Assembly (NCBI GenBank): GCA_903875215.1 | Contig: CAIQVH010000016.1 | Location: 62,001-126,000 of the forward strand | DNA length: 64,000 nt | Direction: 5' to 3' | DNA from: an uncultured Anaerolineae bacterium | GTDB lineage: Bacteria > Chloroflexota > Anaerolineae > Anaerolineales > Villigracilaceae | Shown here: in pieces, positions 12,337 through 40,770 of the stretch | Numbering within the stretch: the stretch's first letter is position 1 | How the letters are laid out: every line of letters starts with the position of its first letter | Made by a program: the position numbers and the translations under genes | The notes under the pieces: generated by a model | Seen by the model: the letters and a program-made list of their open reading frames with translations, nothing else | Database searches by the model: none | What the model was told of the DNA's origin: nothing

Positions 12337-12348
12337 CAACCCCATTCC

Positions 12349-12669: not shown

Positions 12670-12697
12670 CACAGTCCTGATCTGATGAAAGCCATTT

Positions 12698-12727
12698 CCC
12701 GAAGGCGCAGTCCGCTGCGCCTTCGGG
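12698..12727. terminator. Strong hairpin before nadD
   Basis: Perfect 12-bp stem CCCGAAGGCGCA / TGCGCCTTCGGG with a 6-base loop, in the 119-base gap after the lipoprotein gene. It has no T run, so factor-independent termination is uncertain. Confidence 0.5.
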
Positions 12728-12775
12728 GCGTTAATCGGGCCAAGGCTTGGCAGGGGGTGGCCGTGCCAAATCGGG

Positions 12776-12781
12776 TATACT
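12776..12781 (+). promoter_or_regulatory. -10 box of nadD (leaderless layout)
   Basis: TATACT with 7 bases to the nadD ATG and no Shine-Dalgarno. Confidence 0.55.
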
Positions 12782-12788
12782 TCGGCGC

Positions 12789-25589: not shown

Positions 25590-27416
25590 TTACGCTTGCT
25601 CTTCGCCGGGGCTGGTTTCCTTTGGGGCGCCGCCCAACCGGGGGTGTTCTTTGGGTTGTTGTTCCAGGTAGTTTTCCAGGAAGGTTTGATTGCCGGAGTG
25701 ATTCAAGGCGGATTCAAAATCTCCCGCCGGGGATGGGATCGATTGATCAAAGCGCAGAGGTTTCATGACGCCAAACAGGGCAAAGAACCTGGCGATGCTC
25801 ATCAGCAGGGTGTAACGATATTCCTGCATTTTGAGCGATTGCCACTCCACAATATTTCCCATGGCGCCCTGTACGCGTGATTTTTCGCGGATAATGCGGT
25901 GAATATCGCCCGGGTCGCGGTAGCCGGCGGGGGAGATCAGAATCAGGTTGGCGAGCACGATCAGCACCGAGAAGGTGATCAGCACTACCCAGCCGCCCTC
26001 ATTCCACTTGCTGACAATTTGCCCAACGAAAATAAAAGTTGCCAGGGCTGTGGCAAAGGAAGCGCCAAACAGGCCCCAGGCGCGGGCGCGGGCGGTCAGA
26101 TGTTGTTTGATGTGCTGGCGCAAAGCCAGCCCCATGACGGCGATGGGCATGAAAACGCCCACGCCGTAATAGGGCACGGCAGCCGATGTGCGTCCCTGCA
26201 CGAGGAATTGGATCAAAATGGCGGTAATTGCTGCTGCCGTTACCGGGCGGGTGAAGGTGCCTTTGGGATTGCGATAGACCACGATTTCAGGAATCTCGCC
26301 AATCGCCACGTTGCGCCAGGTGATGGCCTGTAAGTCTTGAAAAGCGGTCATCGAGGCGGCCGTTAATAGCCCGACAGCCAGGATCTGGTAGGCCCAGAAC
26401 AGGATGACGCCTCCCGGCAGTTGGGTAAAGCCAATGTAAGCCAGGTTCCCTACCAGCGAGCGGCCTTCCACACCATCAAATGCCTGAAAATGGATGGCGA
26501 AATAGGTCAGCAGCAGGGTGGTGATGGCGCCATAGAACAGAAAAGTGGTCTGCACCACGCGCCCAATGCCCGATTTCCCGCTGTAAAAATGCCAGAGCCA
26601 GCCCAGGCGCGGCAGATGGGCTTTGCCCCATTTGACAAAACTGGCGTCTTCATCAATGACGAACTGGATGCCGTTCGACATGGCTTCCAGGCCGGTTAAT
26701 GCCACCAGGCCCTTCATTGAGGCCGCCAGCAAATGGAAGAGCGCCTGCCCGATGGAAACGGCTTCGCCGGTTTTTTCGCTCGGCAGAGGGGGGACCTGTA
26801 GAGTTTTGGCAATGAACAGCCCAATGGCCATGACGATGGTCATCAGGATGAACATGGCCAGGCCGGTGAAAACCACTTGCGCTGATTCACCACGGCCGCG
26901 GATGGTGATGTACCAGGTGACGACGACCATGGATGCGCCAATCAGGAAGTGCCAGATCCAATTGATGCCGCCGGTGTTCTGGAGCGAGAGCAACTGATCC
27001 ACGCCGGAAAGGGTGGAAACCACGATCGTGAAGATGTAATCCTGCAGCAGGATGACGGCCACGACCAGGCTGAGCGATGGCCCCAGGTAGCGCATGGCTG
27101 CCGTGAAGGACCCTCCGCCTTCGTTGAAAATTCCCAGCGAATACATATACAACGCGCCAAAAACCAGGTTCGCCAGGCCGATGATGGCTACGGCATAATA
27201 GGCGTAGTGTTCCAGCCCGTAGGGATGCAGGGCGTGCATCATCTCCCCGGTGGCATAAAAATAGGAGGTGAAATAATCCACCCCGAAAAGCGCCACCGCA
27301 GCGAGCATGCCAACCTGACCCGCGCCATGGATTTGGGCGCTTTCTTCTTTTTCAACCGGCGCTGCTTTATAAGCGACGGTGATGATGACAATTAAAAGCG
27401 CAACAGAGAAGATCAT
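25590..27416 (-). CDS. KimA-like APC-superfamily permease (copy 1)
   Basis: 608 residues, about twelve membrane helices and an 80-residue soluble C-terminal end. The fold and motifs (LQDYIFTIVVSTLSGVDQLL; ALTGLEAMSNGI; YYGVGVFMPI) correspond to the KimA/YdaO potassium transporter group of the APC superfamily, but the N-terminus is its own (APVEKEE...HGAGQVGMLAA). A potassium substrate is inferred from the nearby KdpD/KdpE genes. Copies 2 and 3 are close paralogs. It has its own promoter (27497-27529), and a terminator separates it from copy 2. GAGG lies 8 bases before the ATG. Confidence 0.8.
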   Translation of the reverse strand: MIFSVALLIVIITVAYKAAPVEKEESAQIHGAGQVGMLAAVALFGVDYFTSYFYATGEMMHALHPYGLEHYAYYAVAIIGLANLVFGALYMYSLGIFNEGGGSFTAAMRYLGPSLSLVVAVILLQDYIFTIVVSTLSGVDQLLSLQNTGGINWIWHFLIGASMVVVTWYITIRGRGESAQVVFTGLAMFILMTIVMAIGLFIAKTLQVPPLPSEKTGEAVSIGQALFHLLAASMKGLVALTGLEAMSNGIQFVIDEDASFVKWGKAHLPRLGWLWHFYSGKSGIGRVVQTTFLFYGAITTLLLTYFAIHFQAFDGVEGRSLVGNLAYIGFTQLPGGVILFWAYQILAVGLLTAASMTAFQDLQAITWRNVAIGEIPEIVVYRNPKGTFTRPVTAAAITAILIQFLVQGRTSAAVPYYGVGVFMPIAVMGLALRQHIKQHLTARARAWGLFGASFATALATFIFVGQIVSKWNEGGWVVLITFSVLIVLANLILISPAGYRDPGDIHRIIREKSRVQGAMGNIVEWQSLKMQEYRYTLLMSIARFFALFGVMKPLRFDQSIPSPAGDFESALNHSGNQTFLENYLEQQPKEHPRLGGAPKETSPGEEQA

Positions 27417-27443
27417 AAGCCTGCCTCATCGTGATTAAGATCA

Positions 27444-27487
27444 CTTGCCGCGCCGTTGCAGAATTGTCAGAGGGTTGGCGCGGCAAG
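27444..27487 (-). promoter_or_regulatory. Leader hairpin of the kimA-like gene 1
   Basis: Perfect 11-bp arms CTTGCCGCGCC / GGCGCGGCAAG around a 22-base loop, at the expected 5' end of the transcript (start near 27490). Could be an RNA structure or an operator; the right arm contains a TTGCCG half-site on the minus strand. Confidence 0.5.
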
Positions 27488-27529
27488 AAAAGGTCAATTT
27501 TATGGTTAATTGTATCAAGAAAATGTCAA
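27481..27529 (-). promoter_or_regulatory. Promoter and KdpE-like operator of kimA-like gene 1
   Basis: Read on the minus strand: TTGACA (27529-27524), 5 bases, TTGATA (27518-27513), 10 bases, -10 TAAAAT (27502-27497), then TTGACC (27497-27492), 5 bases, TTGCCG (27486-27481). The 11-bp repeat step and the 10-bp distance to the -10 match the layout of OmpR/PhoB-class activated promoters. Confidence 0.65.
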
Positions 27530-27574
27530 TATGCGCCGGTCAGTTATGAGAGGCAGGCTTACCCGGGTCGGTGC

Positions 27575-27612
27575 AAAAAAAACAGGCTGAATGGGTTTTC
27601 TATTCAGCCTGT
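27575..27612 (-). terminator. Rho-independent terminator of the copy-2 operon
   Basis: 11-bp stem ACAGGCTGAAT / ATTCAGCCTGT, 9-base loop, then eight T on the minus strand, 18 bases after the copy-2 stop codon. Confidence 0.92.
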
Positions 27613-27629
27613 CGTTTTCTACCAGGTGG

Positions 27630-29498
27630 CTATTCGTGCGAGTCGGTTTCCTTCGGCGCACCGCCCAGCTTGGGCTCGGGTTTCTCGAGATACTGGTCGA
27701 GTAGTGAGGGCGCTTCCGGGTGATCGACGTGCAGGGCGTGGTCGTAATCTCCGGCCGGGATGGGAGCGGCCAGCTCGAAGCGTACCGGCCGGCGCACGCC
27801 AAATAATCCAGCAAATCGAGAAAGTGCTTCAACGATCCGGCTCAAAATGTTATAGCGATATTCCTGCATTTTGAGCGACTGCCATTCCACGATCGAGGCC
27901 ATGGCGCCTTGCACGCGCGCTTTTTCGCGCACGATGCGGTGAATTTGGGTTGGGTCGCGGTAGCCGCCGGGTGAGAGCAGAATGGCATTGGCGATTAAGA
28001 CCAGCACGCTGAAAGTGATCAGCACGACCCAGCCGCCTTCTGTCCACTTGCCCACAATCTGGCCGACAAAGACCAGCGCGCCCAATGTCCCGGCGAACCC
28101 GGCAAAAAAAGCTCCCCAGCGGCGTTTGCGGCCTGTGAATGTGGCCAGGATATGTTTACGGATGGCGAAGCCCATCACTGTGATGGGCATAAACACGCCC
28201 ACGCCGTAATAGGGGACGGCGGTGGTGGTTTTTCCACGCACCAGCAACATCAAGGCCACCGAGATGATAAATCCGGCTGTCACCGAACGGGTGAAGGTGC
28301 CCGCCGGGTTGCGGTAAACCACGATTTCTGGAATTTCACCAATTGCCACGTCGCGCCAGGCAGTTGCCTGCAGATCTTGCATGGCGGTCATCGAGGCAGC
28401 TGCCAGCAGGAAAACCGCCAACAACTGGTAGACCCAGAACAGCAGCGGCCCTTCAGCCGTCACGCCGCCCGCCAGAGGAATGGCAATGTTCCCGCCCAGT
28501 TGATTGAAGCCGATAAAGGCCAGGTTGCCGACCAGGGTCCGCCCAAGCGTGCCATCAAACATATTGAACCGGATGGCGAAGGCCGTCAGCATGAACGTTG
28601 TCACACCGCCGTAGAATAGAAAGGAGGTCTGCACCATCCGCCCGATGCCCGATTTGCCGCTGTAAAATTCCCAGACGCCAGCCCATTTGGGCAGGTGTTT
28701 CTTGCCCCATTTCACCAGGCCGAAATCTTCGCTGCGGACAAACTGAATGCCGTTGGACATGGCCTCCAGGCCCGAGAGCGCCACCATGCCTTTCATCGAG
28801 GCGGTCAGCAGGTGGTACAGTGCCTCCCATATACTGGCTGGCTGGGTAACCGCTTCGGTGGCGGGCAGTGCCGGGATGCCTTTCAAGTGGGCGATCACCA
28901 GGCCGATCAGCAGAACAATCGTCAATAGGATGAAAATTCCCAGCAGAATAAAGACGACCTGCGCCGATTCGCCGCGCCCGCGGATGGTCAGCCAGTAGGT
29001 GACCGAAGCCAGCACCGCGCCGATCAGGAAATGAAGCCACCAGTATTTTCCATATAGGTTCAAGATTGAAAGCATCTGGTCGCCGCCCGAAAGCGCCGAA
29101 ACGACGATGGTCAAAATGTAATCCTGGATTAAAACCACCGCAACGACCAGGCTTAATCCCGGGCTGAGATAGCGCATCGCCGCTGTATACGCTCCGCCGC
29201 CTTCGTTGAAAATTCCCAGCGAGTACATGTAAAGGAATCCGAAGGTCATGTTGGCTATGGCGATAATCGCTGCCGCGGTATAGCCCCAGTGTTCCAACCC
29301 GTAAGGATGCAGGGCGCTCATCATTTCACCGGTGGCATAAAAATACGAGGTGAAATAATCCACGCCAAAGAGCGCCACTGCGGCCAACAGGCCAATCTGC
29401 CCGGCGCCGTGAACGCTGGCGTGCTCTTCTTTCTCAACCGGGGCGGCCCGGTAAGCCAGGAAGGAGATAACGATTAATAGTGCGATTGAGTAAATCAT
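27630..29498 (-). CDS. KimA-like APC-superfamily permease (copy 2)
   Basis: 622 residues, same layout as copies 1 and 3: N-terminal APVEKEEHASVHGAGQIG, twelve or so membrane helices, LIQDYILTIVVSALSG, GLEAMSNGIQF, YYGVGVFMPI and a soluble end with HALHVDHPEAPSLLDQY and EPKLGGAP. Start ATG 29498, after AAGGGAACC; the longer frame (29660) is antisense-like sequence over the regulator. It lies 25 bases downstream of a KdpE-like regulator gene, in one operon with it and a small membrane protein gene. Potassium uptake is inferred from context. Confidence 0.8.
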   Translation of the reverse strand: MIYSIALLIVISFLAYRAAPVEKEEHASVHGAGQIGLLAAVALFGVDYFTSYFYATGEMMSALHPYGLEHWGYTAAAIIAIANMTFGFLYMYSLGIFNEGGGAYTAAMRYLSPGLSLVVAVVLIQDYILTIVVSALSGGDQMLSILNLYGKYWWLHFLIGAVLASVTYWLTIRGRGESAQVVFILLGIFILLTIVLLIGLVIAHLKGIPALPATEAVTQPASIWEALYHLLTASMKGMVALSGLEAMSNGIQFVRSEDFGLVKWGKKHLPKWAGVWEFYSGKSGIGRMVQTSFLFYGGVTTFMLTAFAIRFNMFDGTLGRTLVGNLAFIGFNQLGGNIAIPLAGGVTAEGPLLFWVYQLLAVFLLAAASMTAMQDLQATAWRDVAIGEIPEIVVYRNPAGTFTRSVTAGFIISVALMLLVRGKTTTAVPYYGVGVFMPITVMGFAIRKHILATFTGRKRRWGAFFAGFAGTLGALVFVGQIVGKWTEGGWVVLITFSVLVLIANAILLSPGGYRDPTQIHRIVREKARVQGAMASIVEWQSLKMQEYRYNILSRIVEALSRFAGLFGVRRPVRFELAAPIPAGDYDHALHVDHPEAPSLLDQYLEKPEPKLGGAPKETDSHE

Positions 29499-29523
29499 AA
29501 AGGTTCCCTTTTTGGTGTTTCGG

Positions 29524-30216
29524 CTATTCGATGTCTCGAAGCCGGTATCCAACGCCCGGCTCGGTGATGATGTGCCGCGGGCGCAGGGGATCTGGCTCGA
29601 TTTTTTTGCGCAGGTTGCTGATGTTGACCCGCAAAAGGTGCGAATCGGTGTTGTAATCACTCCCCCAAACGAGTTGGATCAACTGTTTGTGGGTCAGCAC
29701 CTTCCCGGCATGATTGACCAGGACGCGCAAAATCTCATATTCAGTGGGTGTTAGTGCAATGGGTTCGCCTCCCACGGTGACCAGGCGCAAGGCCAGGTTG
29801 ATTGTCAATCTATCGCTCTGATAGACAGGTGTATTTTCTGGTTGGGAGCGATGCCGCAACGCGACCCGGATCCGCGCCATTAACTCCACTGTACTGAAAG
29901 GCTTGGTCAGGTAATCATCGGCTCCGGCATCCAGGGCGGCCACCTTTTCCTCTTCGCGATCGCGCACCGAGATGACGATAATGGGCATCTCAGTCCATTC
30001 GCGCAAACGGCGAGTCACTTCCAGCCCATCCACATCTGGCAGGCCCAGGTCAAGAATCATCACATCGGGTCGATTGGTGGAAACCATGCGCAAGGCTTCC
30101 TCGCCATTTTCAGCTTCGAAAACGAGATAAGTGCTGGCCAGCGAAGAGCGCAAAAAACGCCTGATGGGGCGCTCGTCATCCACCACCAGGACGCGTAGGG
30201 GTTGGGGTTCGGTCAA
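29524..30216 (-). CDS. KdpE-like response regulator (copy 1)
   Basis: 230 residues of the OmpR/PhoB class. Receiver: VVDDERPIRRFL, phospho-Asp in LDLGLPDVDG, and KPFSTVELMARI. Winged-helix DNA-binding domain: LTPTEYEILRVLVNHAGKVLTHKQL, ending with TEPGVGYRL, which is typical of KdpE. The start codon is TTG (30216), 3 bases after the stop of the small membrane protein gene. The upstream open frame and the TTG support coupling to that gene. Confidence 0.92.
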   Translation of the reverse strand: MTEPQPLRVLVVDDERPIRRFLRSSLASTYLVFEAENGEEALRMVSTNRPDVMILDLGLPDVDGLEVTRRLREWTEMPIIVISVRDREEEKVAALDAGADDYLTKPFSTVELMARIRVALRHRSQPENTPVYQSDRLTINLALRLVTVGGEPIALTPTEYEILRVLVNHAGKVLTHKQLIQLVWGSDYNTDSHLLRVNISNLRKKIEPDPLRPRHIITEPGVGYRLRDIE

Positions 30217-30219
30217 GGG

Positions 30220-30393
30220 TTATTTCCTGAAAATTTCAAGGAGAAAAAGGGTCTGGAACCAAATTAGAACAATCATGATCAGAAATTGATGCGCCTGCCA
30301 AGAGATGGGGAACAGATTGGCGATCGCTGCTCCCGCCAATGGCAGGCCGCGGAATAGATAACGTACAACCTGCCTGAATTTTCCTTTTGACAT
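30220..30393 (-). CDS. Small hydrophobic protein before KdpE-like regulator (family member 1)
   Basis: 57 residues. Basic start (MSKGKFRQVVRYLFR), then GLPLAGAAIANLFP and LIMIVLIWFQTLFLLEIF, giving one or two membrane segments. It aligns without gaps to the 60-residue protein at 34276-34458: both have GLPL-x-G about 20 residues in, a Pro 10 residues later, and IWFQT near the C-terminus. The stop is 3 bases from the TTG start of the regulator. The ATG at 30393 is the only in-frame ATG after an upstream TAG; AAGGAAGG lies about 20 bases before it, so initiation is weak. I know no family like it. Confidence 0.75.
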   Translation of the reverse strand: MSKGKFRQVVRYLFRGLPLAGAAIANLFPISWQAHQFLIMIVLIWFQTLFLLEIFRK

Positions 30394-30463
30394 GCGAGCC
30401 CAAGAGTGGTGAAAGCCTTCCTTAAATTGCCTAACAAACTAATGACAAATTTCGGCATGCTTA

Positions 30464-30480
30464 CATCAAGAGATTGTCAA
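30464..30480 (-). promoter_or_regulatory. Second 11-bp direct repeat in the leader of the copy-1 regulator operon
   Basis: TTGACA (30480-30475), 5 bases, TTGATG (30469-30464). It lies downstream of the putative start site and has no -10 at the proper distance, so it may be a repression site. Confidence 0.45.
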
Positions 30481-30490
30481 GATGATGGCT

Positions 30491-30555
30491 ATTCTACGTT
30501 GGGCGTCATCAAATTCTGCGCAAGAAAATTGGAAAATATGTCAAGAATATGTCAA
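30491..30555 (-). promoter_or_regulatory. Promoter with phased half-sites, operon of small protein 1 / KdpE 1 / KimA 2
   Basis: On the minus strand: TTGACA (30555), TTGACA (30544), TTCCAA (30534), TTGCGC (30523) and TTGATG (30512), stepped 11, 10, 11 and 11 bp, then 10 bases and -10 TAGAAT (30496-30491). The first two sites lie in a perfect tandem 11-mer CTTGACATATT. The core TTGATG-N10-TAGAAT equals that of the other two operons. Confidence 0.65.
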
Positions 30556-30573
30556 GATGCCGTTTCGCATATG

Positions 30574-30611
30574 AAAACCCCGCAAGGTGCTTTTGACACC
30601 TGCGGGGTTTT
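30574..30611 (-). terminator. Terminator of the copy-3 operon
   Basis: Stem AAAACCCCGCAAGGTG / CACCTGCGGGGTTTT with one bulged A; on the minus strand it is followed by TTTTC. Confidence 0.8.
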
Positions 30612-30643
30612 GGGTTGTTTTTTTCACTATCGGGAAGACGGTT

Positions 30644-32458
30644 TTACTTTTCTATTTCAGGTATTTCAGTCACGTGGGGTGCTCCGCCCAGTTTGGGTTC
30701 TGGTTTGTGAATATATTGTTCCAGTAGCGATGGCGCTTCGGGATGATCAACATGCAGGGCATGGTTGTAATCGCCAGCGGCCACCGGGGCTTCACGGACA
30801 GAGCGTCGGAGGCCGAATAGTTCCAAGAAACGGGCCAGGGTCACCAGCACCGTATACCGGTATTCCTGCATCCGCAGCGACTGCCATTCGACGATGGAAG
30901 CCATCGCACCCTGGACCCGCGCCTTATCACGCACGATGCGATGGATGGTGACCGGATCACGCGCGCCGATCGGCGAAATCAGAACCAGATTGGCGACAAT
31001 GATCAGAACGCTGAACGAAATCAGCACCACCCAACCGCCTTCCTGCCACTTGCCCACAATCTGCCCGATAAAGACAAATCCGGAAAGGACTGCCGCGAAA
31101 CCAGCCGCCAGGCTGCCCCAGCGACGGGAACGACCGCTAAAAGTAGCCAGGATATGTTTGCGAATGGCAAAGCCCATCATCATGATTGGCATAAAGACGC
31201 CAATCCCGTAGTATGGCACACCAGCCGAGGTTTCACCTTTGATCAGGAAGGTAATCAGAATGGTCACGGCAAAGGCAATCGTCACGGAGCGCGTAAAGGT
31301 GCCGCGCGGGTCGCGGTAGACAATAATTTCCGGGATTTCGCCCATCGCCACGTCGCGCCATTCGGTGGCCTGCAAGTCCTGGAAGGCGGTCATCGAGGCG
31401 GCCGCCAATAAGCCCACCGCCAGGATTTGGTAAGCCCAGTAGAGGATATTGCCACCAGGGAGTTGGTCGAAACCGATAAAAGCCAGGTTGGCAACCAGCG
31501 AACGTCCCAATGTGCCATCAAAAACATTGAAGTGGAAGGCGAAATAAGCCAGGAACGATGTGGTGATCCCACCATAAAATAGGAAGGAGGTTTGCACCAG
31601 GCGGCCAATGCCAGCCTTTCCGCTGTAGAAGTGCCACAAACCTTGCAGTTTTGGATAATGCTTTTTGCCCCATTTAACGATCCCGGCATCTTCATTGATC
31701 ACAAATTGAATGCCGTTCGACATGGCTTCGAGACCAGAGAGCGCCACCAGGCCCTTCATGGAGGCAGTCAGCATGTGAAAGGCTGCCTGCCAGAAGGAAG
31801 CCGGTTTAATATCTTCAGGGTAGATGATGGCTGGCACGCCACGTTCCTTGGCCATAATCAGCCCGATTGCCATGGCAACCGTCATCAGCACAAAAAGCCC
31901 CAGCATGGTGAAGACCACGCGCGCTGATTCGCCGCGTCCACGAATAGTCAGGTACCAGGTCACCCCCATCAGGAAAATGCCCATACCCACGCGGATCAAC
32001 CAATCGATGTGATACAGATTAAAGATCGAAAGTAACTGATCCACACCTGAAAGGCTGGAAACCACGATTGTGAAAATGTAATCCTGAAGCAATACCACAG
32101 CGACGATCAAGCTCAAGCCAGGGCTGAGATAGCGCATCGTGGCGGTATACGAACCGCCACCCTCGTTAAAAATCCCGAGCGAGTACATGTACAGGAACCC
32201 AAAAACCGCATTGGCGAAAGCGATCACTAGAACGGCGATCCAGGCATATTGCTGCAAGTTGTACGGATGCAAAGCACTCATCAGTTCGCCGGTGGCATAG
32301 AAATACGAGGTGAAATAGTCCACACCGAACAGCGCCAGCGCCGCCAGCAAGCCAATTTGCCCGGCACCATGCACGTGAGCGTGCTCTTCCTTTTCGACCG
32401 GAGCGGCTTTGAAAGCAATAACGATAAAAACGATCAAGAGACCAATTGAGAAAATCAT
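30644..32458 (-). CDS. KimA-like APC-superfamily permease (copy 3)
   Basis: 604 residues; all features of copies 1 and 2: APVEKEEHAHVHGAGQIG at the N-terminus, about twelve membrane helices, LLQDYIFTIVVSSLSG, GLEAMSNGIQF, YYGIGVFMPI, and a soluble end with NHALHVDHPEAPSLLEQY and EPKLGGAP. Closest to copy 2. It lies 24 bases downstream of an unknown 362-residue protein gene. Potassium uptake is inferred from the Kdp-type regulators in the same operon. Confidence 0.8.
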   Translation of the reverse strand: MIFSIGLLIVFIVIAFKAAPVEKEEHAHVHGAGQIGLLAALALFGVDYFTSYFYATGELMSALHPYNLQQYAWIAVLVIAFANAVFGFLYMYSLGIFNEGGGSYTATMRYLSPGLSLIVAVVLLQDYIFTIVVSSLSGVDQLLSIFNLYHIDWLIRVGMGIFLMGVTWYLTIRGRGESARVVFTMLGLFVLMTVAMAIGLIMAKERGVPAIIYPEDIKPASFWQAAFHMLTASMKGLVALSGLEAMSNGIQFVINEDAGIVKWGKKHYPKLQGLWHFYSGKAGIGRLVQTSFLFYGGITTSFLAYFAFHFNVFDGTLGRSLVANLAFIGFDQLPGGNILYWAYQILAVGLLAAASMTAFQDLQATEWRDVAMGEIPEIIVYRDPRGTFTRSVTIAFAVTILITFLIKGETSAGVPYYGIGVFMPIMMMGFAIRKHILATFSGRSRRWGSLAAGFAAVLSGFVFIGQIVGKWQEGGWVVLISFSVLIIVANLVLISPIGARDPVTIHRIVRDKARVQGAMASIVEWQSLRMQEYRYTVLVTLARFLELFGLRRSVREAPVAAGDYNHALHVDHPEAPSLLEQYIHKPEPKLGGAPHVTEIPEIEK

Positions 32459-32482
32459 GGCATTACCTTTTTGTGAATATTT

Positions 32483-33571
32483 TTAGGATTGAAAAGCCGT
32501 TTCGAGGGCTTTTAACTGTTTCAATAAATGCCGCCGCGTGGATGAGTTCAACCGCGTATCCTGGCTGACCTTGGCTTGTTCGCCGCGCGAGGCGCGCACC
32601 ACAAACGCTGGGATGAACATAATTCGCCCGGCCGGGATAACTTCGAAGCGCATTTCGGCCATTTCCAGGTTCTGGTCATCAAAATAGGGCAGCGAGAGGC
32701 TCAATCCCCGATTGAGGGTTCCTCGTTCGGCACGTTTCTTGATCTCGCCAACGATGGATTCTGTTTTGAAGTTGGCCAAAGCCCGCCCCTGGTTGATTAA
32801 TTGCCCCAGGATGCCATAGCGCTTGCGCTGGTAGGTTTCACAGGCCACCATGTAGGAGGCCAGCGAACTGGCCCGATGCAGCACCTGCACATAGTTCTGC
32901 ATCGATCGAACATGGGCTTCAGCTTCCTTCTCCGAACCGACCAGCAATTTGCCCTCCGCATCGAAGGCCACCCACTGCGGCAGGAAAAAGCGGCGCGCCG
33001 CCGGGACAAACGGCGTCTGGAGCTCTCCTCGCCCCGCCTCGGCACTCCCCTGTTCTGCAATGGCATCGCTGGCCTGGATGATGGCTGATTCAGGCATCTC
33101 ACCCTCAACCGGGATGCTCGGGATGGCTTCATCGGCATCGGGACGGTAAGTCATGGAACGGCCATCGGGCAGCATGTTCGCAACCAGGTGACTGGCCGCC
33201 GCAAAACGCAGCAGGCTGGCGCTGGCCGAGATAGCCTGGTCAGGGGTCTGCTCCAGAGCTTGCAGGCGCTGCAGAACCGCCTCGCGCAACTCATGCCGCG
33301 AAAGGGCTAAGAGGAGCCCACCCGATTTTTGTTCCCGTTGAGTTTCCGGGATGGTGATGGGGGCTGCCTGCCCAACCTGTTTGACATGCAAAACCACCCG
33401 ATCGGGCAGTGTGAAGCGCACCTGGACATTTTCCGAAATCAGCGCTTCAGCCAAGTGTCGTGCCTGGCTTTCGATAAAACGTTGGACGATCGGCGGTTGA
33501 TTGTCGAACAGTGCTTTGTGTTGCTCATACTCCTGCCGCAAGTGAGTGGCAGGAATAGGGAATTTGGTCAT
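32483..33571 (-). CDS. Unknown protein between KdpE-like and KimA-like genes
   Basis: 362 residues, soluble, no signal peptide. It starts MTKFPIPATHLRQEYEQHK at 33571, only 4 bases after the regulator stop. The N-terminal 100 residues are helix-rich (VQRFIESQARHLAEALI); the middle is low in order; the C-terminal part has MRFEVIPAGRIMFIPAFVVRASRGEQ, which looks like a beta domain, and ends in a basic helix. I recognise no family. There is no counterpart in the copy-2 operon. Confidence 0.75.
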   Translation of the reverse strand: MTKFPIPATHLRQEYEQHKALFDNQPPIVQRFIESQARHLAEALISENVQVRFTLPDRVVLHVKQVGQAAPITIPETQREQKSGGLLLALSRHELREAVLQRLQALEQTPDQAISASASLLRFAAASHLVANMLPDGRSMTYRPDADEAIPSIPVEGEMPESAIIQASDAIAEQGSAEAGRGELQTPFVPAARRFFLPQWVAFDAEGKLLVGSEKEAEAHVRSMQNYVQVLHRASSLASYMVACETYQRKRYGILGQLINQGRALANFKTESIVGEIKKRAERGTLNRGLSLSLPYFDDQNLEMAEMRFEVIPAGRIMFIPAFVVRASRGEQAKVSQDTRLNSSTRRHLLKQLKALETAFQS

Positions 33572-33575
33572 AGTT

Positions 33576-34286
33576 TTAAGCCTCGATTTCCCGTAAACGG
33601 TAACCCACACCCGGCTCGGTGATGATGTATCGTGGACGTAGGGGATCTGGCTCGATTTTCTTCCGCAGGTTGCTGACGTTGACCCGCAGCAGATGCGAAT
33701 CGGCGACATAATCACTGCCCCACACAGCCAGAATAAGTTGTTTGTGAGTAAGTACTTTTCCCACATGATTGACCAGGGTACGCAATATGTCATACTCGGT
33801 GGGAGTTAACGTGACTGCTTGATCGTTCACCCGAATTATCCGGCGCGTTAAATTAACTGATAACCCACCACTTTCATAGGCCGACTCGATTTCCGGTTTG
33901 GTAGAGTGTCGCAAGGCTGCGCGAATTCGAGCGGTTAACTCATTGACGCTGAAAGGCTTGGTCAGGTAATCATCGGCTCCGGCATCGAGGGCAGCTACTT
34001 TATCTTCTTCGCGGTCACTTACTGAGACGATAATCACCGGGATTAAGGTCCATTCGCGCAGTCGGCGGGTGATTTCTATACCATCCAGGTCAGGCAAGCC
34101 CAGATCGAGTAGAATCAGATCCGGGCGGCTAGTGGCCACGCTTTGCAAGGCTACCATGCCAGTTTCCGCTTCAAAAATAGCATACTGGCTGCCAAGGGCG
34201 ATTTGCAAAAAACGCCGGATGGGCCGTTCATCATCCACCACCAGGATGCGCAAGGGATTGACCTTTTGAGTCAGTTCATTTTCCAT
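33576..34286 (-). CDS. KdpE-like response regulator (copy 2)
   Basis: 236 residues. Receiver with VVDDERPIRRFLQIAL, LDLGLPDLDG (phospho-Asp), KPFSVNELTARI; winged helix with LTPTEYDILRTLVNHVGKVLTHKQL and C-terminal TEPGVGYRL. ATG 34286 lies 11 bases inside the end of the small membrane protein gene, so translation is coupled. Very similar to copy 1 over the whole length, as expected from duplication of a regulator-permease unit. Confidence 0.92.
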   Translation of the reverse strand: MENELTQKVNPLRILVVDDERPIRRFLQIALGSQYAIFEAETGMVALQSVATSRPDLILLDLGLPDLDGIEITRRLREWTLIPVIIVSVSDREEDKVAALDAGADDYLTKPFSVNELTARIRAALRHSTKPEIESAYESGGLSVNLTRRIIRVNDQAVTLTPTEYDILRTLVNHVGKVLTHKQLILAVWGSDYVADSHLLRVNVSNLRKKIEPDPLRPRYIITEPGVGYRLREIEA

Positions 34287-34458
34287 TCGAAACCGCATTG
34301 AACAGGATGGAAGTTTGGAACCAGATCCGCAAAAGGATGACCAGCAATTTCTGCTCACCAACCGTGAGCGGCAAGAATGGGCTGGAAGAAATTCCCACCA
34401 GCGGCAGCCCACAGAGGATCGAACACCAGCTATTTTTAAGACTGAATTTCTTTAACAT
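34276..34458 (-). CDS. Small hydrophobic protein before KdpE-like regulator (family member 2)
   Basis: 60 residues from ATG 34458 (SD-like AGGAT 9 bases upstream); an in-frame ATG at 34485 would add 9. Basic start MLKKFSLKNS, then GLPLVGISSSPFLPL and LLVILLRIWFQTSILF, one or two membrane segments. Homologous to the protein at 30220-30393 (GLPL-x-G, central Pro, IWFQT). Overlaps the regulator start by 11 bases. Function unknown; a membrane partner or sensor for the regulator pathway is a guess. Confidence 0.75.
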   Translation of the reverse strand: MLKKFSLKNSWCSILCGLPLVGISSSPFLPLTVGEQKLLVILLRIWFQTSILFNAVSNGK

Positions 34459-34484
34459 TGGACACACATCCTGCAGCCAAATCA

Positions 34485-34519
34485 TTGATACGCCCGCATT
34501 TTACAGGTTGGCGTATCAA
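34485..34519 (-). promoter_or_regulatory. Palindrome around the copy-2 operon -10 box
   Basis: Perfect 10-bp inverted repeat TTGATACGCC / GGCGTATCAA with a 15-base spacer that contains the -10 box. The right arm is the TTGATA half-site of the shared promoter; the left arm is the same half-site reversed. Confidence 0.65.
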
Positions 34520-34562
34520 ATCTTGAGCAGGAAAGTTGCCCGGATTATCAAGAATGGCTCAA
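34498..34562 (-). promoter_or_regulatory. Promoter with phased half-sites, operon of small protein 2 / KdpE 2 / unknown / KimA 3
   Basis: On the minus strand: TTGAGC (34562-34557), 5 bases, TTGATA (34551-34546), then 32 bp on, TTGATA (34519-34514), 10 bases, -10 TAAAAT (34503-34498). The core TTGATA-N10-TAAAAT is identical to that of kimA-like gene 1. Confidence 0.65.
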
Positions 34563-34601
34563 GAAAAAATCCCCCAAACCCTGGAAATCGGATTTGGGGG
34601 A
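34563..34601 (-). terminator. Rho-independent terminator of the kdpD operon
   Basis: 9-bp stem TCCCCCAAA / TTTGGGGGA (loop 14) followed by six T on the minus strand, just after the third regulator gene. Confidence 0.9.
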
Positions 34602-34616
34602 GGCCTGGCAGTGTGA

Positions 34617-35300
34617 TCAATCTATTTTTAATCTGTAACCGACGCCTGGTTCAGTGACAAGATGGATTGGGCGGGACGGATCGGGCTCGATTTTACGGCG
34701 CAGATTGCTGATATTGACCTGCAGGATATGCGTTTCAGCCTCGTATGACCCACCCCAAACAGTACGGAGCAACTGGCGGTGGGTGAGCACCTTCCCGGCA
34801 TGTTTGACCAGGGTTTTGAGCAAATCGTATTCATTGGGAGTGAGAGTCACCATTTCGCCATTGGCTGTCACGGCCCGAGTATTCAAGTCGACAGAGAGGC
34901 CCGGCACCTGAAAGACCGGTTCGCCAGTTTCTTGAATCGTTCGCCGCAGCACCACCCGCAGACGCGCCATCAACTCGCCGGCGCCGAAAGGCTTGGTCAG
35001 GTAATCGTCGGCGCCGGCATCAAGCGCGGCAATTTTGTCGCTTTCTTGTTCGCGAACCGAGACGATAATGATGGGGATTTGCGTCCACTCGCGCAGGCGG
35101 CGGGTGACTTCCACGCCATTGATGTCGGGGAGGCCAAGGTCAAGCAGGATGACTTCAGGGCGTTCGGTTACCGCCTGACGCAACGCATCCTCACCGTTGG
35201 CGGCTTCGAGAACAGTGTAGTGCTCGCCCAGCAGGGTTGTCAAAAAACGCCGGATTGGACGCTCATCATCCACTATCAAAACACGCGGTAAATCGACCAT
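34617..35300 (-). CDS. kdpE: Response regulator KdpE (partner of KdpD)
   Basis: 227 residues. Receiver: IVDDERPIRRFLTTLL, LDLGLPDING (phospho-Asp), KPFGAGELMARL; winged helix with LTPNEYDLLKTLVKHAGKVLTHRQL and C-terminal LVTEPGVGYRLKID. ATG 35300, 23 bases after kdpD, in one operon with it and closed by a terminator. KdpE binds DNA upstream of potassium-uptake genes. Here no kdpFABC is present; the likely targets are the permease operons next to it. Confidence 0.93.
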   Translation of the reverse strand: MVDLPRVLIVDDERPIRRFLTTLLGEHYTVLEAANGEDALRQAVTERPEVILLDLGLPDINGVEVTRRLREWTQIPIIIVSVREQESDKIAALDAGADDYLTKPFGAGELMARLRVVLRRTIQETGEPVFQVPGLSVDLNTRAVTANGEMVTLTPNEYDLLKTLVKHAGKVLTHRQLLRTVWGGSYEAETHILQVNISNLRRKIEPDPSRPIHLVTEPGVGYRLKID

Positions 35301-35323
35301 TCCCTCGATTGTACACCAGGCGG

Positions 35324-37936
35324 CTAGCTTTCGGAAACAGGCAGCGCAATTGTGATAATGGTTCCACCGCCGGCGTGATTGGCAGCCCAGATTCGCCCGC
35401 CGTGGGCTTCGATAATCCCTTTGCAGATGGCCAATCCCAGGCCGGTGCCGGTGACTTGCTCGGGGCGTTGAACGCGGTAGAACTTATCGAAGACGCGCTC
35501 CAGATCACCTTCAGGGATGCCCAAACCGTGATCGGTGACACTGATATGAATTTCGTTTTTGACAATTTGCGCGCGCAGTTCGAGCGGAGAACCTGCGGGT
35601 GAATATTTCAGCGCGTTATCGAGCAGGTTGTTGATCACATGGACGATCAGTACGAAATCAAGCGCCACCAGCGGCAAGGAATCGGGAATCGCGATCTTCA
35701 GATTACGCCCGATTAATCGAGCTTCCAGCTGCCCGACAGAAGCGCCGATCACATCCTGGATATCGGAAGGGTCCCGTTTTGCCTTGAGTGCTCCGGCCTC
35801 CAGGCGGGTCATATCCAGCAGGTTGCCGACCAGCCGGTTCAGCCGGTCGGCTTCTTCGCGGGCGGTTTCGACCAGGCTCTGGCGTGAAGCCGGGTCGAGC
35901 AGGTCGCTTTGCGCCTCGAGTGTGGTCAATGTCCCGGTGATGGAGACGAGCGGGGTACGAAGGTCGTGTGAGATGGAGTTGAGCAGTGCGTTTTGCAGTT
36001 TTTCGGCGGCCTGCAGCAGTTTCATCTGCCGGGTTTGTTCGGCCAGCGAGACACGTTCCAGGGCTTGGGCGGCCTGGTTGGAGAAGGCTTCCAGCAGGCG
36101 GCGCTGATCGGGGGTGGGCTGGATTTCAGGTTCGAGCGGTTGCAGGCTGAGTACGCCGATGGTGCGTTGGGAAGTTTTGAGCGGCAGGCAGCGGGTTTCG
36201 GCGTCTGGGAAAGCGTTGGTGCCGCGCCCGGCTGGTTCACCGTGCTTCCAGACCCAGGTGGCGATCTCCAGGTCGGGTGTTTGGGTGGGGCCTCCGTGGG
36301 GGCGCAGGCTGTCGCCTTCGGCCAGGTAGATGATGCCTTCCCGGCCAAAATCGGGGATGAGGTGCTGGCGGATGGCCTGCAGGACGGATTCCAGCCCGTC
36401 TGCGGCGGCCAGGTCGCGGCTGAGGGCGTAAAGGACCGCGGTGTCAGCTTCGCGTTGCTGGGCAGCTTCGGCCTGTTCGCGGGCGCGCGCAGTGAGCGCG
36501 CTGATGACGGTGCCAACCAGAAACAGGCCGATGAAGGTGATGATGTATTCCGTGTCGGCGATGGAGAGGGTCATGGTGGGCGGGATAAAGAAGAAGTCGA
36601 AGGCGGCCACGCCCAGGATGGAGACCAGAATGGCCGGGCCGCGGCCAAGGTACACGGCAGCGATGACCACATCCAGCAGGTAGAGCATCACCAGGTTGGT
36701 GGGTGAAATATCCAGCTCGATGGCAAAGCCGATGGCGGTGGTGACCAGCGTCAGCAGAATTCCCCACAGGTAACGGGAGAGGGGCGGGTGGGGCGTGGTG
36801 GCCGGTTCGGGTGTGACCGTTTCGGCGTTGCTGATCAGATACAGGTCGATTCCGCCGCTGCGTTGGCTAAGCTCGGAGATGAGCGAGGGGCGCAATTGGC
36901 CAAAGCGGCGCGGGTGGGCGGGTTTTCCGGCCATGATTTTGGCGATGTTGTGGCGGCGGGCATAGTCCAGGATGGCGTTGGCCATCGCTGGCGCAGAATC
37001 GTTGGCCGGGATGATTTTGGTGCGCGCGCCCAGTTCTTCGGCCAGTTGCAGGGCGCGGGTGATCTGGTCGCGCCGGGCGGGGGAGAGCATGGCTTGCGAG
37101 GGTGTTTCAACGTACAGGGCGAACCATTCGGCGTTGGAACGTTTGGCCAGGCGCTGTGCGGCGCGAATCAGGCTGTCTCCGGCGCGATTGGGGCCAACAC
37201 AGACCAGCAGACGCTCGGCTGCCGGCCACGGCCCGGGAATGGAGCTGGCGCGCATATAGGCGCGCAGCTGGCCATCGACGCGCTCAGCGGTGCGGCGCAT
37301 GGTCATTTCGCGCAGGGCGGTCAGGTTGCCCTTGCGATAGAATTTTTCGATCGTGCGGGCCGCCTGTTCGGGGATCATGACTTTACCTTCATGCAGGCGC
37401 GCCATCAATTCGTCGGGTGAAAGATCGATCAGCTCGAGTTCGCTGGCCTCGTCGAGCAGCTGATCGGGCAGGGTGTCGGTCACCGGCTCCCCGGTGATGC
37501 GGGTTACGATGTCGTTGAGACTTTCGAGGTGCTGAATGTTGAGAGTGGTGTAGACATCGATCCCGGCTTCCAGCAGTTCCTGCACATCCTGAAAGCGGCG
37601 CGGATGCCGCGCTCCGGGTGCATTGGTGCCCGCCAATTCATCCACCAGCGCCAGGGCGGGTTTGCGCGCCAGCAGTGCCTCCATATCCATATCCGTCAGG
37701 GTCAGGCCGTTCACTGTGCTGGTGCGGCGCGGCAAGCTTTCCAACCCAACGGTAAGCGCCTCTGTTTCGGCGCGCCCATAGGTTTCGATGTAGCCGATCA
37801 CGACATCCACGCCCTGATTTTTCCGCTGGCGGGCGGCATCCAGCATTGCGTAGGTTTTTCCCACCCCGGCTGCATAGCCGATGAAAATCTTCAGGTTGCC
37901 GCGCCGGGCGGCAGAAGGGAGAGGCGCAATCGTCAT
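35324..37936 (-). CDS. kdpD: Sensor histidine kinase KdpD
   Basis: 870 residues, close to the usual 890-900. Senses potassium or turgor and phosphorylates KdpE. Domains: KdpD N-terminal ATP-binding domain (IFIGYAAGVGKTY, P-loop at residues 20-28; VIGYIETYGR; LVDELAGTNAPG) to about 220; UspA-like domain about 245-370; four membrane helices (DUF4118) about 400-500; GAF-like about 520-640; HisKA with SISHDLRTPL (His657); HATPase_c with NLLDNALKYS, DHGLGIP, GTGLGLAI. ATG 37936 has no Shine-Dalgarno and overlaps the stop of a 9-codon upstream frame as ATGA. Confidence 0.95.
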   Translation of the reverse strand: MTIAPLPSAARRGNLKIFIGYAAGVGKTYAMLDAARQRKNQGVDVVIGYIETYGRAETEALTVGLESLPRRTSTVNGLTLTDMDMEALLARKPALALVDELAGTNAPGARHPRRFQDVQELLEAGIDVYTTLNIQHLESLNDIVTRITGEPVTDTLPDQLLDEASELELIDLSPDELMARLHEGKVMIPEQAARTIEKFYRKGNLTALREMTMRRTAERVDGQLRAYMRASSIPGPWPAAERLLVCVGPNRAGDSLIRAAQRLAKRSNAEWFALYVETPSQAMLSPARRDQITRALQLAEELGARTKIIPANDSAPAMANAILDYARRHNIAKIMAGKPAHPRRFGQLRPSLISELSQRSGGIDLYLISNAETVTPEPATTPHPPLSRYLWGILLTLVTTAIGFAIELDISPTNLVMLYLLDVVIAAVYLGRGPAILVSILGVAAFDFFFIPPTMTLSIADTEYIITFIGLFLVGTVISALTARAREQAEAAQQREADTAVLYALSRDLAAADGLESVLQAIRQHLIPDFGREGIIYLAEGDSLRPHGGPTQTPDLEIATWVWKHGEPAGRGTNAFPDAETRCLPLKTSQRTIGVLSLQPLEPEIQPTPDQRRLLEAFSNQAAQALERVSLAEQTRQMKLLQAAEKLQNALLNSISHDLRTPLVSITGTLTTLEAQSDLLDPASRQSLVETAREEADRLNRLVGNLLDMTRLEAGALKAKRDPSDIQDVIGASVGQLEARLIGRNLKIAIPDSLPLVALDFVLIVHVINNLLDNALKYSPAGSPLELRAQIVKNEIHISVTDHGLGIPEGDLERVFDKFYRVQRPEQVTGTGLGLAICKGIIEAHGGRIWAANHAGGGTIITIALPVSES

Positions 37937-38124: not shown

Positions 38125-39282
38125 ATGACCCCCAAAATTGCCATTGTTCATGATTGGTTGGTTACCTATGCCGGTTCCGAGCGGGTCATCGAGCAGCTTT
38201 TCCAAATCTTCCCCTCCGCCGACCTGTTCACCCTGCTCGATTTTTTACCGCAAGAAGATCGCGGTTTTTTAAGCGGCCGCCAGATCAAAACCTCCTTTTT
38301 GCAAACCTTCCCACTGCTCAACGCCAAAAACTATCGCAGTTTTCTGCCGCTCATGCCCCTGGCCATCGAGCAATTCGATTTTAGCGGCTACGATGTCATT
38401 CTCTCCAACTGCCATGCTGTTTCCAAGGGCATTCTCACCCACCCCGGCCAACTCCACATCAGTTACATCCACAGCCCCATGCGTTATGCCTGGGATATGC
38501 AAAACAACTACCTTTCGGTCAGCGGATTCAACAGCCTGAAATCCTGGCTGGCGCGTTCCCTTCTACACTACATCCGCCTGTGGGATTTCGCCGCCGCCTA
38601 CCGCCCCGATCATTTGCTGGGAAACTCCGGCTTCATCTGCCAGCGCATCGAAAAAACCTACCGGCGCGCCGCCAGCATTTTCTACCCGCCAGTCAATACC
38701 GACGCCTTTCCCCTGCACCTCGCAAAAGAAGACTACTACCTCACCGCCTCGCGGCTGGTTCCGTACAAACGCATCGACCTGATCGTAGACGCCTTCGCCG
38801 GCCTGCCCGATAAACGCCTGATCGTCATCGGCGACGGCCCCGAATCTCACAAACTCAAAGACCTCAACCTGCCCAATGTCACCTGGCTAGGCTACCAACC
38901 CGGAGACGTTTTACGCGACCACATGCAGCGCGCCCGCGCTTTCATTTTTGCCGCCAAGGAAGATTTTGGCATTATCCCACTCGAAGCGCAGGCCTGCGGC
39001 ACCCCGGTCATTGCTTTTGGGCAGGGCGGCGTCCGCGAAACCATCCTCGGCATCGACCAGCCTCAGCCCACCGGCCTCTTTTTCCACGAACAAACCGTCC
39101 CGGCCTTGCAGCACGCCATCCAGGAATTTGAGCACAATTCGGCGCGCTTCACGCCACAGGCCTGCCGCGCCAACGCCGAACGCTTCTCCAATCAACGCTT
39201 CCAGCGTGATTTCAAAAACCTCGTCGAAACCGCCTGGCGGGAATTCCAGGCCACCCAACAAGCATTCCCCGAGTCGCAATGA
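38125..39282 (+). CDS. Glycosyltransferase, GT4 family
   Basis: 385 residues, GT-B fold. N-terminal IVHDWLVTYAGSERVIEQ; C-terminal glycosyltransferase group 1 domain with SRLVPYKRIDLIV, GDGPESHKL, and FAAKEDFGIIPLEAQACGTPVIAF (the EDFGI..E motif that binds the donor). Adds a sugar to a polysaccharide repeat or lipid-linked intermediate; donor and acceptor unknown. The stop overlaps the start of the priming transferase as ATGA, so the two are coupled. Confidence 0.9.
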   Translation: MTPKIAIVHDWLVTYAGSERVIEQLFQIFPSADLFTLLDFLPQEDRGFLSGRQIKTSFLQTFPLLNAKNYRSFLPLMPLAIEQFDFSGYDVILSNCHAVSKGILTHPGQLHISYIHSPMRYAWDMQNNYLSVSGFNSLKSWLARSLLHYIRLWDFAAAYRPDHLLGNSGFICQRIEKTYRRAASIFYPPVNTDAFPLHLAKEDYYLTASRLVPYKRIDLIVDAFAGLPDKRLIVIGDGPESHKLKDLNLPNVTWLGYQPGDVLRDHMQRARAFIFAAKEDFGIIPLEAQACGTPVIAFGQGGVRETILGIDQPQPTGLFFHEQTVPALQHAIQEFEHNSARFTPQACRANAERFSNQRFQRDFKNLVETAWREFQATQQAFPESQ

Positions 39283-40736
39283 CCCCCGTCATCCTGCACC
39301 AGGACAACGAATACTTCTCGCAAAACACCGCCACCCCGGCCTGGCTCTATCGGCGCTGGCTGATGACCGCCTTCATGCTGAGCAGTGACCTGCTCTGTGT
39401 GCTGGGTTCCATCGCCCTGGCCGTCTTTCTCTGGCAATTCATTCGCGTCGAACTGACACCCGGGCAATATAGCTCGCTCATGCTGCCTGTCGCCGGCCTC
39501 TTCATCATTATCTATCTGGTCATGGGCCTGTATCCGGGTATCGGTGTCGGCCCGGTGGAAGAATTGCGCCGCCTGTCCATAGGCTCCACCCTGGGCATGT
39601 TCGCCCTGATGAGCCTGAGTTTTTACCTGCGCAATACCACTATCTGGTCGCGGGCGGTTTTGGGGCTGACCTGGTTTTTCCTGCTGGTCAGCGCCCCGCT
39701 GGTGCGGAAGCTCTTCCGTCGCCTGGCGGTACGCCTCCGTTTGTGGGGATTGCCCGTCGTCGTGGTCGGCGAAACCAGCGGCGCAGAATTCATCTATAAA
39801 AGCCTGCGCCGCAACCGGCTGACGGGTCTTTGGCCGGTTTTGTGCGTCAAGGCGGGTTCGCTCGGCACCATTTTCCCCCCGCCTTCCGATCTGCACTCTG
39901 CAAATTGGGAAGGTCGGTCCTTATTCAAAAATATTGATATTCTCATCATTGTTCCCGAAAAAGCCCCTCTCGGAGCAGTCAAAAACGTCCTGCTCGATAA
40001 AAGCCATCAGTTCAAACGCATCATCGTCATGTTTGACGACGCCCGGATGGGGTCGGTCTGGTTCACCCCTCTCCATCTGGTCGAAAACCTCGGCCTAGAA
40101 GTCACCCATCAGCTGATCAACCCGTCTCAGCGCATCATCAAGCGCAGCCTCGATGTCCTCCTGGTGCTGATCTCGCTCCCGGTCATGCTCCCGGTCTTTC
40201 TAATTTTGGCCCTACTGATCCGGCTGGATAGCCCCGGCCCGGTCTTTTACACTCAAAAACGTGTCGGCCATGCTGGCAAAGAAATTCGCATCTGGAAATT
40301 CCGCACCATGATGGCCAATGCCGAACAAATCTTGCAAGACTACCTGGCGCGTGACCCCGAACTGCGCGTCGAATGGGATCAGAACTTCAAACTCAAAAAA
40401 GACCCGCGCATCACCCGCGTCGGGAACTTTTTACGCCGCACCAGCCTGGATGAACTGCCCCAAATCTGGAACGTGGTGTGCAAAGAAATGAGCCTGATCG
40501 GCCCCCGGCCCATCGTTGCAGAAGAGATCCCGCTTTACAGCGACGACTTCGACATTTATAAACAGGTAGTTCCCGGTATGACCGGCCTGTGGCAGATCTC
40601 GGGCCGCAATGACCTGACCTACCAGGAACGCGTCAATCTGGACGTATATTACGTCCAAAACTGGTCCATCTGGCTGGACATCCACATTCTCATCCACACC
40701 CTGATCATTGCCACACAGGGTCGCGGAGCCTATTAA
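39279..40736 (+). CDS. Polyprenyl-phosphate sugar-1-phosphate transferase (exopolysaccharide priming enzyme)
   Basis: 485 residues, WbaP/CpsE type. Four or five N-terminal membrane helices (residues 27-150), a Rossmann-like middle with VVVVGETSG, a further helix near 295-315 and the bacterial sugar transferase domain with [36 protein letters not shown] and [12 protein letters not shown]. Moves a sugar phosphate onto undecaprenyl phosphate to start a repeat unit at the inner face of the membrane. Confidence 0.93.
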
Positions 40737-40770
40737 CCCGGGAAATTCCCCGGCACACAGGAGCGGAACC

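Follow-up and report, generated by a model that had tools for sequence, protein, structure and literature searches.

We propose that positions 25590-37936 of the window, the 64,000-nucleotide stretch of DNA analysed here, probably constitute a potassium-uptake island in which the sensor kinase KdpD and its KdpE-type regulators switch on three KimA-like K+/H+ symporters through direct-repeat operators. In textbooks, KdpDE switches a single pump, and the initial annotation had suggested that it is coupled here to KimA-type transporters instead. This suggestion gains support from the gene order in relatives and the conserved residues for K+ and protons, together with the KimA fold, operators shared with the kdpA promoters of relatives, and the lack of matches to KdpA, TrkH and Kup in the genome. 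The features of the island are as follows.

35324-37936, minus strand: kdpD sensor kinase, from Pfam and NCBIfam domain matches and the Walker A letters
34617-35300, minus strand: kdpE1, the regulator adjoining kdpD, from Pfam and NCBIfam matches and the regulator tree
34563-34601, minus strand: intrinsic terminator 3' of kdpDE (fold z -3.2)
34548-34562, minus strand: putative KdpE operator TTGAGCCATTCTTGA upstream of the kdpE2 unit, the weakest of the sites (rank 7, 13.0 bits)
34276-34458, minus strand: s1, small, probably two-helix membrane protein of 60 aa (membrane nature judged by eye)
33576-34286, minus strand: kdpE2, KdpE of the permease-unit type, from Pfam and NCBIfam matches and the tree
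32483-33571, minus strand: unk362 (362 aa), conserved candidate permease partner gene without family or fold match
30644-32458, minus strand: permease A, KimA-like by PDB sequence match, predicted fold and residues
30574-30611, minus strand: intrinsic terminator 3' of permease A (fold z -5.5)
30541-30555, minus strand: putative KdpE operator TTGACATATTCTTGA upstream of the kdpE3 unit (motif match)
30466-30480, minus strand: second putative operator TTGACAATCTCTTGA of the kdpE3 unit, 75 bp downstream of TTGACATATTCTTGA (motif match)
30220-30393, minus strand: s2, small, probably two-helix membrane protein of 57 aa (membrane nature judged by eye)
29524-30216, minus strand: kdpE3, KdpE of the permease-unit type, from Pfam and NCBIfam matches and the tree
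27630-29498, minus strand: permease B, KimA-like by identity to permease A, tree and residues
27575-27612, minus strand: intrinsic terminator 3' of permease B (fold z -8.6)
27515-27529, minus strand: putative KdpE operator TTGACATTTTCTTGA upstream of permease C, the best match in the window (22.5 bits)
27483-27497, minus strand: second putative operator TTGACCTTTTCTTGC upstream of permease C, 32 bp after TTGACATTTTCTTGA (motif match)
25590-27416, minus strand: permease C, KimA-like by tree and residues, of a clade that occurs in the TrkA operons of relatives

Read from 37936 to 25590, the order is kdpD-kdpE1-terminator, s1-kdpE2-unk362-permease A-terminator, s2-kdpE3-permease B-terminator, and permease C. 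All genes originally described are present on one strand, namely kdpD, the three kdpE-type genes and three permeases, the two genes for small proteins and the unknown one; the three terminators were confirmed as well, each folding better than shuffled sequences. With an assembly in 38 contigs, one might suspect that unrelated DNA was joined during assembly or binning, but this is extremely improbable, as the island lies in the interior of a 592-kb contig and similar gene orders occur in other genomes, for example at the loci L104, L105, L116, L120, L125, L126 and L137 of the set described below. Downstream of permease C lie two small genes (window 25544-25275 and 25262-24810), encoding a protein of 89 aa with a sub-threshold Agenet match and one of 150 aa that is hydrophobic by eye; among the matches listed for L067-L182, both occur in this genome only. 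On the plus strand at 38125-41646, a glycosyltransferase, a sugar transferase and a sugar nucleotidyltransferase were read from the translations, a set resembling an exopolysaccharide cluster.

At E <= 0.01, neither Pfam nor NCBIfam yielded a family for permeases A, B and C, the Pfam models AA_permease_2 and K_trans being among those unmatched. Searched against PDB sequences, permease A returned KimA as the sole match at E <= 1 (E 3.2e-16), and a profile of 31 relatives returned KimA (E 4.6e-23) with no other match at E <= 0.001. Identity to permease A is 71% for permease B and 67% for permease C. A predicted model of permease A (mean pLDDT 79.5) retrieved KimA at ranks 1-3 in Foldseek, and VIA comparison of this model with KimA gave Z scores of 37.9-39.7 and an rmsd of 2.6-3.5 over 398-424 residues, the next family being ApcT with Z 31.8. 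The island permeases thus resemble KimA of Bacillus subtilis and the KUP family in their APC/LeuT-type fold and in their K+ and proton residues; they differ from KimA in identity (only 21-22% over the fold match) and in having a partner gene, unk362, and the structural match of the model ends at KimA residue 455.

The equivalents of KimA D36, Y43, D117, T121, S125, E233 and Y377 are identical in 95/95 permeases, the three of the window included, and that of T230 is S or T; these counts cover 95 of 96 permeases (those of 79 loci plus the window's island), one of less than 450 aa having been left out. In permease numbering D36 corresponds to D47, Y43 to Y54, E233 to E244, T121 to T130, Y377 to Y417 and D117 to D126. 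Mutants of D36, Y43 or E233 in KimA are reported to abolish uptake and those of T121 and Y377 to lower affinity, with E233 assigned a proton-coupling role, while D117, proposed to act in trans-inhibition, and T230 are described as dispensable for growth (PMC6994465). Because KimA is the best match in both sequence and fold and the essential residues are invariant, we take K+/H+ symport to be the most plausible function of permeases A, B and C, a reading drawn from sequence and a predicted model. An alternative is that these APC-superfamily proteins transport amino acids or other organic cations and are osmo- or K+-regulated by chance; the APC fold of the model is common also to ApcT and AdiC, identity to KimA is low and a K_trans match is lacking. 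We nevertheless consider this very unlikely in view of the invariant K+ site and proton residue, of KimA being the only PDB sequence match at E <= 0.001, and of neighbours that are Kdp and TrkA potassium genes. Membership of an amino-acid-transporter clade, which the initial annotation had listed as evidence against a KimA-type reading, was found neither by sequence nor by fold.

The cytosolic domain of KimA is reported to bind c-di-AMP (PMC10284832). No such domain was seen in the model of permease A, which contains only helices past residue 494; the protein may nevertheless have one. In contrast to the ydaO riboswitch of B. subtilis kimA, the island has putative two-component operators; no ydaO riboswitch was found in the window, where the sole Rfam match at gathering score is a tRNA. 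A c-di-AMP synthase is present in the genome, and control by c-di-AMP is therefore still possible.

The genome (G000; 3.77 Mb in 38 contigs, completeness 98.64, contamination 2.48) contains one KdpD match only. The absence of kdpFABC from the window, noted earlier, extends further, as KdpA is unmatched across the whole genome; TrkH gave 0 matches and Kup none. The kdpFABC pump thus seems to have been lost, although a failure to find kdpFABC, TrkH or Kup in a 38-contig assembly falls short of proving loss. A further, more divergent KimA-like or amino-acid-permease protein, matching Pfam AA_permease_2, is encoded at C31:575913. Outside the window, C31:434576-439983 (L184:9577-14984) encodes unk362, a P-type cation ATPase and two TrkA proteins in that order; the gap between the first two genes measures only 135 bp and holds no permease, a place where relatives encode one.

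In a set of 61 genomes of relatives, KdpA was reported in eight, seven of them credible because the weak match in G028 lies in a TrkH gene. KdpD exceeded the Pfam cut-off in 11 of the 61, and six of these 11 (G000, G004, G008, G023, G029 and G037) gave no KdpA match; the KimA-like permease family is present in all of the six except G029, and a permease adjoins kdpD and kdpE in G000, G004 and G023. TrkH occurs in six of the 61, and its absence was rejected as a mark of permease-bearing genomes, since TrkH is carried by 2/22 genomes with this permease family versus 4/39 others. GTDB genomes were also scanned with two conserved peptides, yielding 157 stretches that encode relatives; the best 80 were taken and gave 79 loci, so that this set leans to close relatives. 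According to their record titles, the loci come from Chloroflexota or its members, with the exception of two titled only 'uncultured bacterium', phyla other than Chloroflexota being covered by the peptide scan only. Among 301 sampled genomes of the phylum, the permease family is found in eight.

Two gene orders recur, their domains having been checked on one example of each. Layout I is (kdpABC)-s-kdpE-unk362-permease-kdpD-kdpE (for example L116, L125 and L126), with variants bearing two kdpE-permease units (L120) or lacking unk362 (L123, ordered kdpA-kdpB-(DUF4118 protein)-kdpC-s-kdpE-permease-kdpD-kdpE) or kdpABC (L137). Layout II is DUF4118 kinase-RR231-unk362-permease-P-type ATPase-TrkA-TrkA. 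As a side observation, L080:9140-9889 encodes a 249-aa DUF4118 protein without a kinase-domain match beside kdpC, and a similar-scoring HK-labelled gene stands beside kdpC in L116, L120, L125, L126 and L128. Among the 79 loci, many of them cut by contig ends, KdpD was counted in 14, kdpA or kdpB in 12 and both in 8, RR231 in 37, and at least two TrkA genes in 33. The juxtaposition of kdpE and KimA-like genes, which the initial annotation had recommended looking for in other genomes, accordingly recurs as layout I. It had also regarded kdpFABC beside the other Kdp genes of relatives as counting against its proposal; KdpD, kdpA or kdpB and a permease do occur together in 8 of the 79 loci, which favours the potassium reading. 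Some relatives keep kdpABC in this island, which on gene order is therefore a variant, without the pump, of a broader potassium island.

The KdpD protein contains the Pfam KdpD domain (297 bits) together with DUF4118, HisKA and HATPase_c, and its best NCBIfam model is PRK10490 at 806 bits, below the cut-off of 1123. Among NCBIfam models, kdpE1, kdpE2 and kdpE3 score highest with KdpE, at 245-249 bits and thus short of the equivalog cut-off of 325, and all three are OmpR-type regulators according to Pfam and NCBIfam. The serine-kinase domain of KdpD keeps its Walker A motif, G-X5-GKT. KdpB is the reported substrate of this domain (PMC11018627); loss of the whole pump would have taken this substrate with it, and a new target for the domain is possible. 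In a tree of 42 regulators, with RR231 thinned to 10 sequences, RR231 is split from the KdpE group with support 100/99. Of the 16 KdpE proteins of permease units, 14 cluster together, kdpE2 and kdpE3 included (weak support, 88/46), and the KdpD-adjacent KdpE proteins fall outside this cluster; a second, older KdpE lineage, found in many genomes, thus seems to have long travelled with permease units. KdpE2 and KdpE3 hardly differ at their C-terminal ends and therefore likely share an operator; the end of KdpE1 is similar but has several differences around the recognition helix, because of which KdpE1 may not read the operator of the other two.

Direct repeats before the three permease units were first spotted by eye. 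To avoid circularity, a motif (TTGACcCTTTCTTGA) was trained solely on the upstream regions of 10 kdpA genes from other genomes, 3 of 13 kdpA genes (L119, L126 and L068) being left out as lacking upstream DNA. A first run on kdpA upstream regions was discarded, its conserved stretch being read as KdpF codons and not as an operator, and the run was repeated after moving the region further upstream. The core of the resulting motif is the 11-bp repeat TTGAC-N6-TTGA. Over both strands of the 64-kb window, ranks 1-4 fell at 27515, 30466, 30541 and 27483, upstream of two units only, permease C and the kdpE3 unit. The site of the kdpE2 unit at 34548 is under the 14-bit cut used for relatives. Rank 5 (35035, 14.7 bits, plus strand, within the minus-strand kdpE1) and rank 6 (17563, 13.5 bits, plus strand) were deemed unrelated. 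The core TTGAC-N6-TTGA occurs three times in the window, always in permease-unit promoters.

Among relatives, a motif score of at least 14 bits is reached upstream of 12/12 counted kdpE-permease units, a count that admits a regulator only if it is labelled kdpE2 or kdpE3 and the next gene is unk362 or a permease, and that includes three units (L116, L123 and L125) from loci whose kdpA regions trained the motif. At the same cut the motif precedes 0/32 HK-RR231 pairs (one further pair had too little upstream DNA), 0/35 unk362 genes of RR231/HK-type units and 1/14 kdpD genes; since only one kdpD gene has a site, kdpDE is not obviously a member of its own regulon. Six loci outside the counting rule (L105, L143, L152, L155, L158 and L172) all have TTGA-N7-TTGA before the unit, a bare pattern that is not specific alone (131 matches, 52 of them upstream of listed genes). 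A scan of 72 of the 79 loci (2.28 million strand-bases, the 7 training loci left out) at 16 bits gave 30 matches for the motif, 6 of them away from listed genes, versus 2 for the reversed motif. A degenerate pattern derived from the window sites has five exact matches in the 3.77-Mb genome, four of them in the island; the fifth, at C10:23603, falls within a gene interpreted as encoding a carboxyltransferase and was dismissed as a chance match. With one mismatch allowed, 35 genome matches stand against 22 for the backward control, and the pattern is therefore specific only when exact.

The predicted sites are paired in 9/12 units of relatives at a spacing of 75-78 bp and single in the other three; the kdpE3 unit of the window has a spacing of 75 bp, and the 32-bp spacing before permease C recurs in 4/10 kdpA regions. 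The E. coli KdpE site is reported as TTTATA-N5-TTTACA (PMC3264566), which has the same 11-bp period as the island repeats. The two systems thus have in common operators of two half-sites, predicted ones in the island, that differ in their letters (TTGAC/TTGA versus TTTATA/TTTACA). They are further alike in the KdpD domain, DUF4118 and kinase domains of the sensor and in OmpR-family KdpE; unlike the KdpDE-kdpFABC system of E. coli, the island has three KdpE genes per one KdpD and stands in a genome without a KdpA match, where three KimA-like permeases are the apparent targets.

In the mechanism that we favour, low K+ would be sensed by KdpD, and the activated kinase would phosphorylate KdpE1 and probably also KdpE2 and KdpE3. 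At least one of the three regulators would bind the 11-bp direct repeats upstream of the three permease units, activating kdpE2-unk362-permease A, kdpE3-permease B and permease C and thereby supplying three K+/H+ symporters. KdpE2 and KdpE3 should amplify the response because they are encoded inside the units that they would control. That KdpD phosphorylates every KdpE, that these regulators bind DNA and that the permeases carry K+ are what we infer here from sequence. A different arrangement, in which the permeases import K+ while KdpD and KdpE1 survive on their own from a lost kdpFABC system and some other kinase acts on KdpE2 and KdpE3, would fit the separate kdpDE unit with its own terminator, the lack of an operator before kdpD, the distinct lineage of KdpE2 and KdpE3 with the differences of KdpE1 near the recognition helix, and the use of another pair, HK-RR231, by related permease units. 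We judge it unlikely, as the genome encodes a single KdpD-domain protein, the permease promoters bear the same motif as kdpA promoters, and kdpD still adjoins permease units in G004 and G023, genomes in which KdpA gave no match.

Because it is the nearest annotated upstream gene for 74/96 permeases (seven had none annotated upstream), unk362 is, on positional grounds, a conserved permease partner; it occurs in 15 of 298 sampled genomes of the class. Its protein matched nothing in Pfam, NCBIfam or PHROGs, nor any PDB sequence at E <= 1; the best Pfam E value among 26 members was 0.059, and the predicted fold had no Foldseek match at E <= 0.001 (best VIA Z 4.6), although it may still prove to be a known one. 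At one locus that carries kdpABC and kdpDE, a 218-aa gene without a Pfam match (L085:11485-12141) replaces unk362 upstream of a KimA-like permease (12151-14436), which is followed by two genes that are TrkA-like by eye. For the small protein s, a profile built from 10 copies and run on 24562 open frames of 80 loci (L103-L182) found 17 copies, 9 already in the profile and 8 new, all on the same strand as the next gene (kdpE, unk362 or permease). In this result s1 came as two pieces, and the kdpE frame as called overlaps both s1 and the L158 copy. Pairwise differences summed over six copies number 344 at third codon positions versus 161 and 112 at the others, a bias that points to translated genes. 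Roles of unk362, s1 and s2 in K+ uptake are what we infer for them.

For the history of the permeases, 50 of the 96 sequences were placed in a tree with SH-aLRT support only, which omits the unclassed permeases and roughly half of those in layout II. Permease A falls with L105 and L104 in this tree, permease B with L152, and permease C with three members from TrkA operons (L175, L180 and L182). The tandem copying of regulator-permease units first envisaged was not borne out, each permease grouping with those of other genomes, and a recent tandem duplication of the permeases was rejected, as A, B and C lie in different clades. The C31 copy of unk362 groups with unk362 of L180, L129 and L108, and the permeases of L180 and L129 lie in the wider permease C clade; unk362 of L175 and L182 group elsewhere. 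On one reading, with which the trees partly agree, a TrkA-operon permease would have moved to, or been replaced by a copy in, the KdpDE island.

To our knowledge, CeoB/CeoC systems are without TrkH. The mycobacterial CeoB and CeoC are described as Trk systems of two TrkA proteins, and the unk362-permease-P-type ATPase-TrkA-TrkA operons of relatives resemble them, as does the lack of a TrkH match in G000; unlike the relatives' operons, the TrkA operon of G000 has no permease, its permeases sitting in the KdpDE island. No membrane partner of TrkA-only systems was found in the available portions of the literature on CeoB/CeoC and Rv2690c or of PMC12136442, and titles and abstract openings revealed no pairing of KdpDE with KimA-type transporters. 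The parts appear to be of known kinds, and the wiring, the partner protein unk362 and the small protein s appear new. A bolder scheme, which we put forward tentatively and hold to be possible though somewhat doubtful, is that permease and unk362, with s where it is present, form a new multi-part K+ importer of Anaerolineae, that TrkA pairs, in the operons that have them, gate it instead of TrkH, that unk362 acts in trans as the c-di-AMP domain of KimA does in cis, and that KdpDE has been rewired to it from the pump.

Our results place one and the same putative operator signal upstream of kdpA or of KimA-like symporters, depending on the genome; if true, this would represent a regulon handed over from a pump to a secondary transporter. 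The conserved and unnamed unk362 and s would be candidate parts of bacterial K+ uptake, and the permease-TrkA operons offer a concrete candidate for the membrane partner of TrkA in genomes lacking TrkH.
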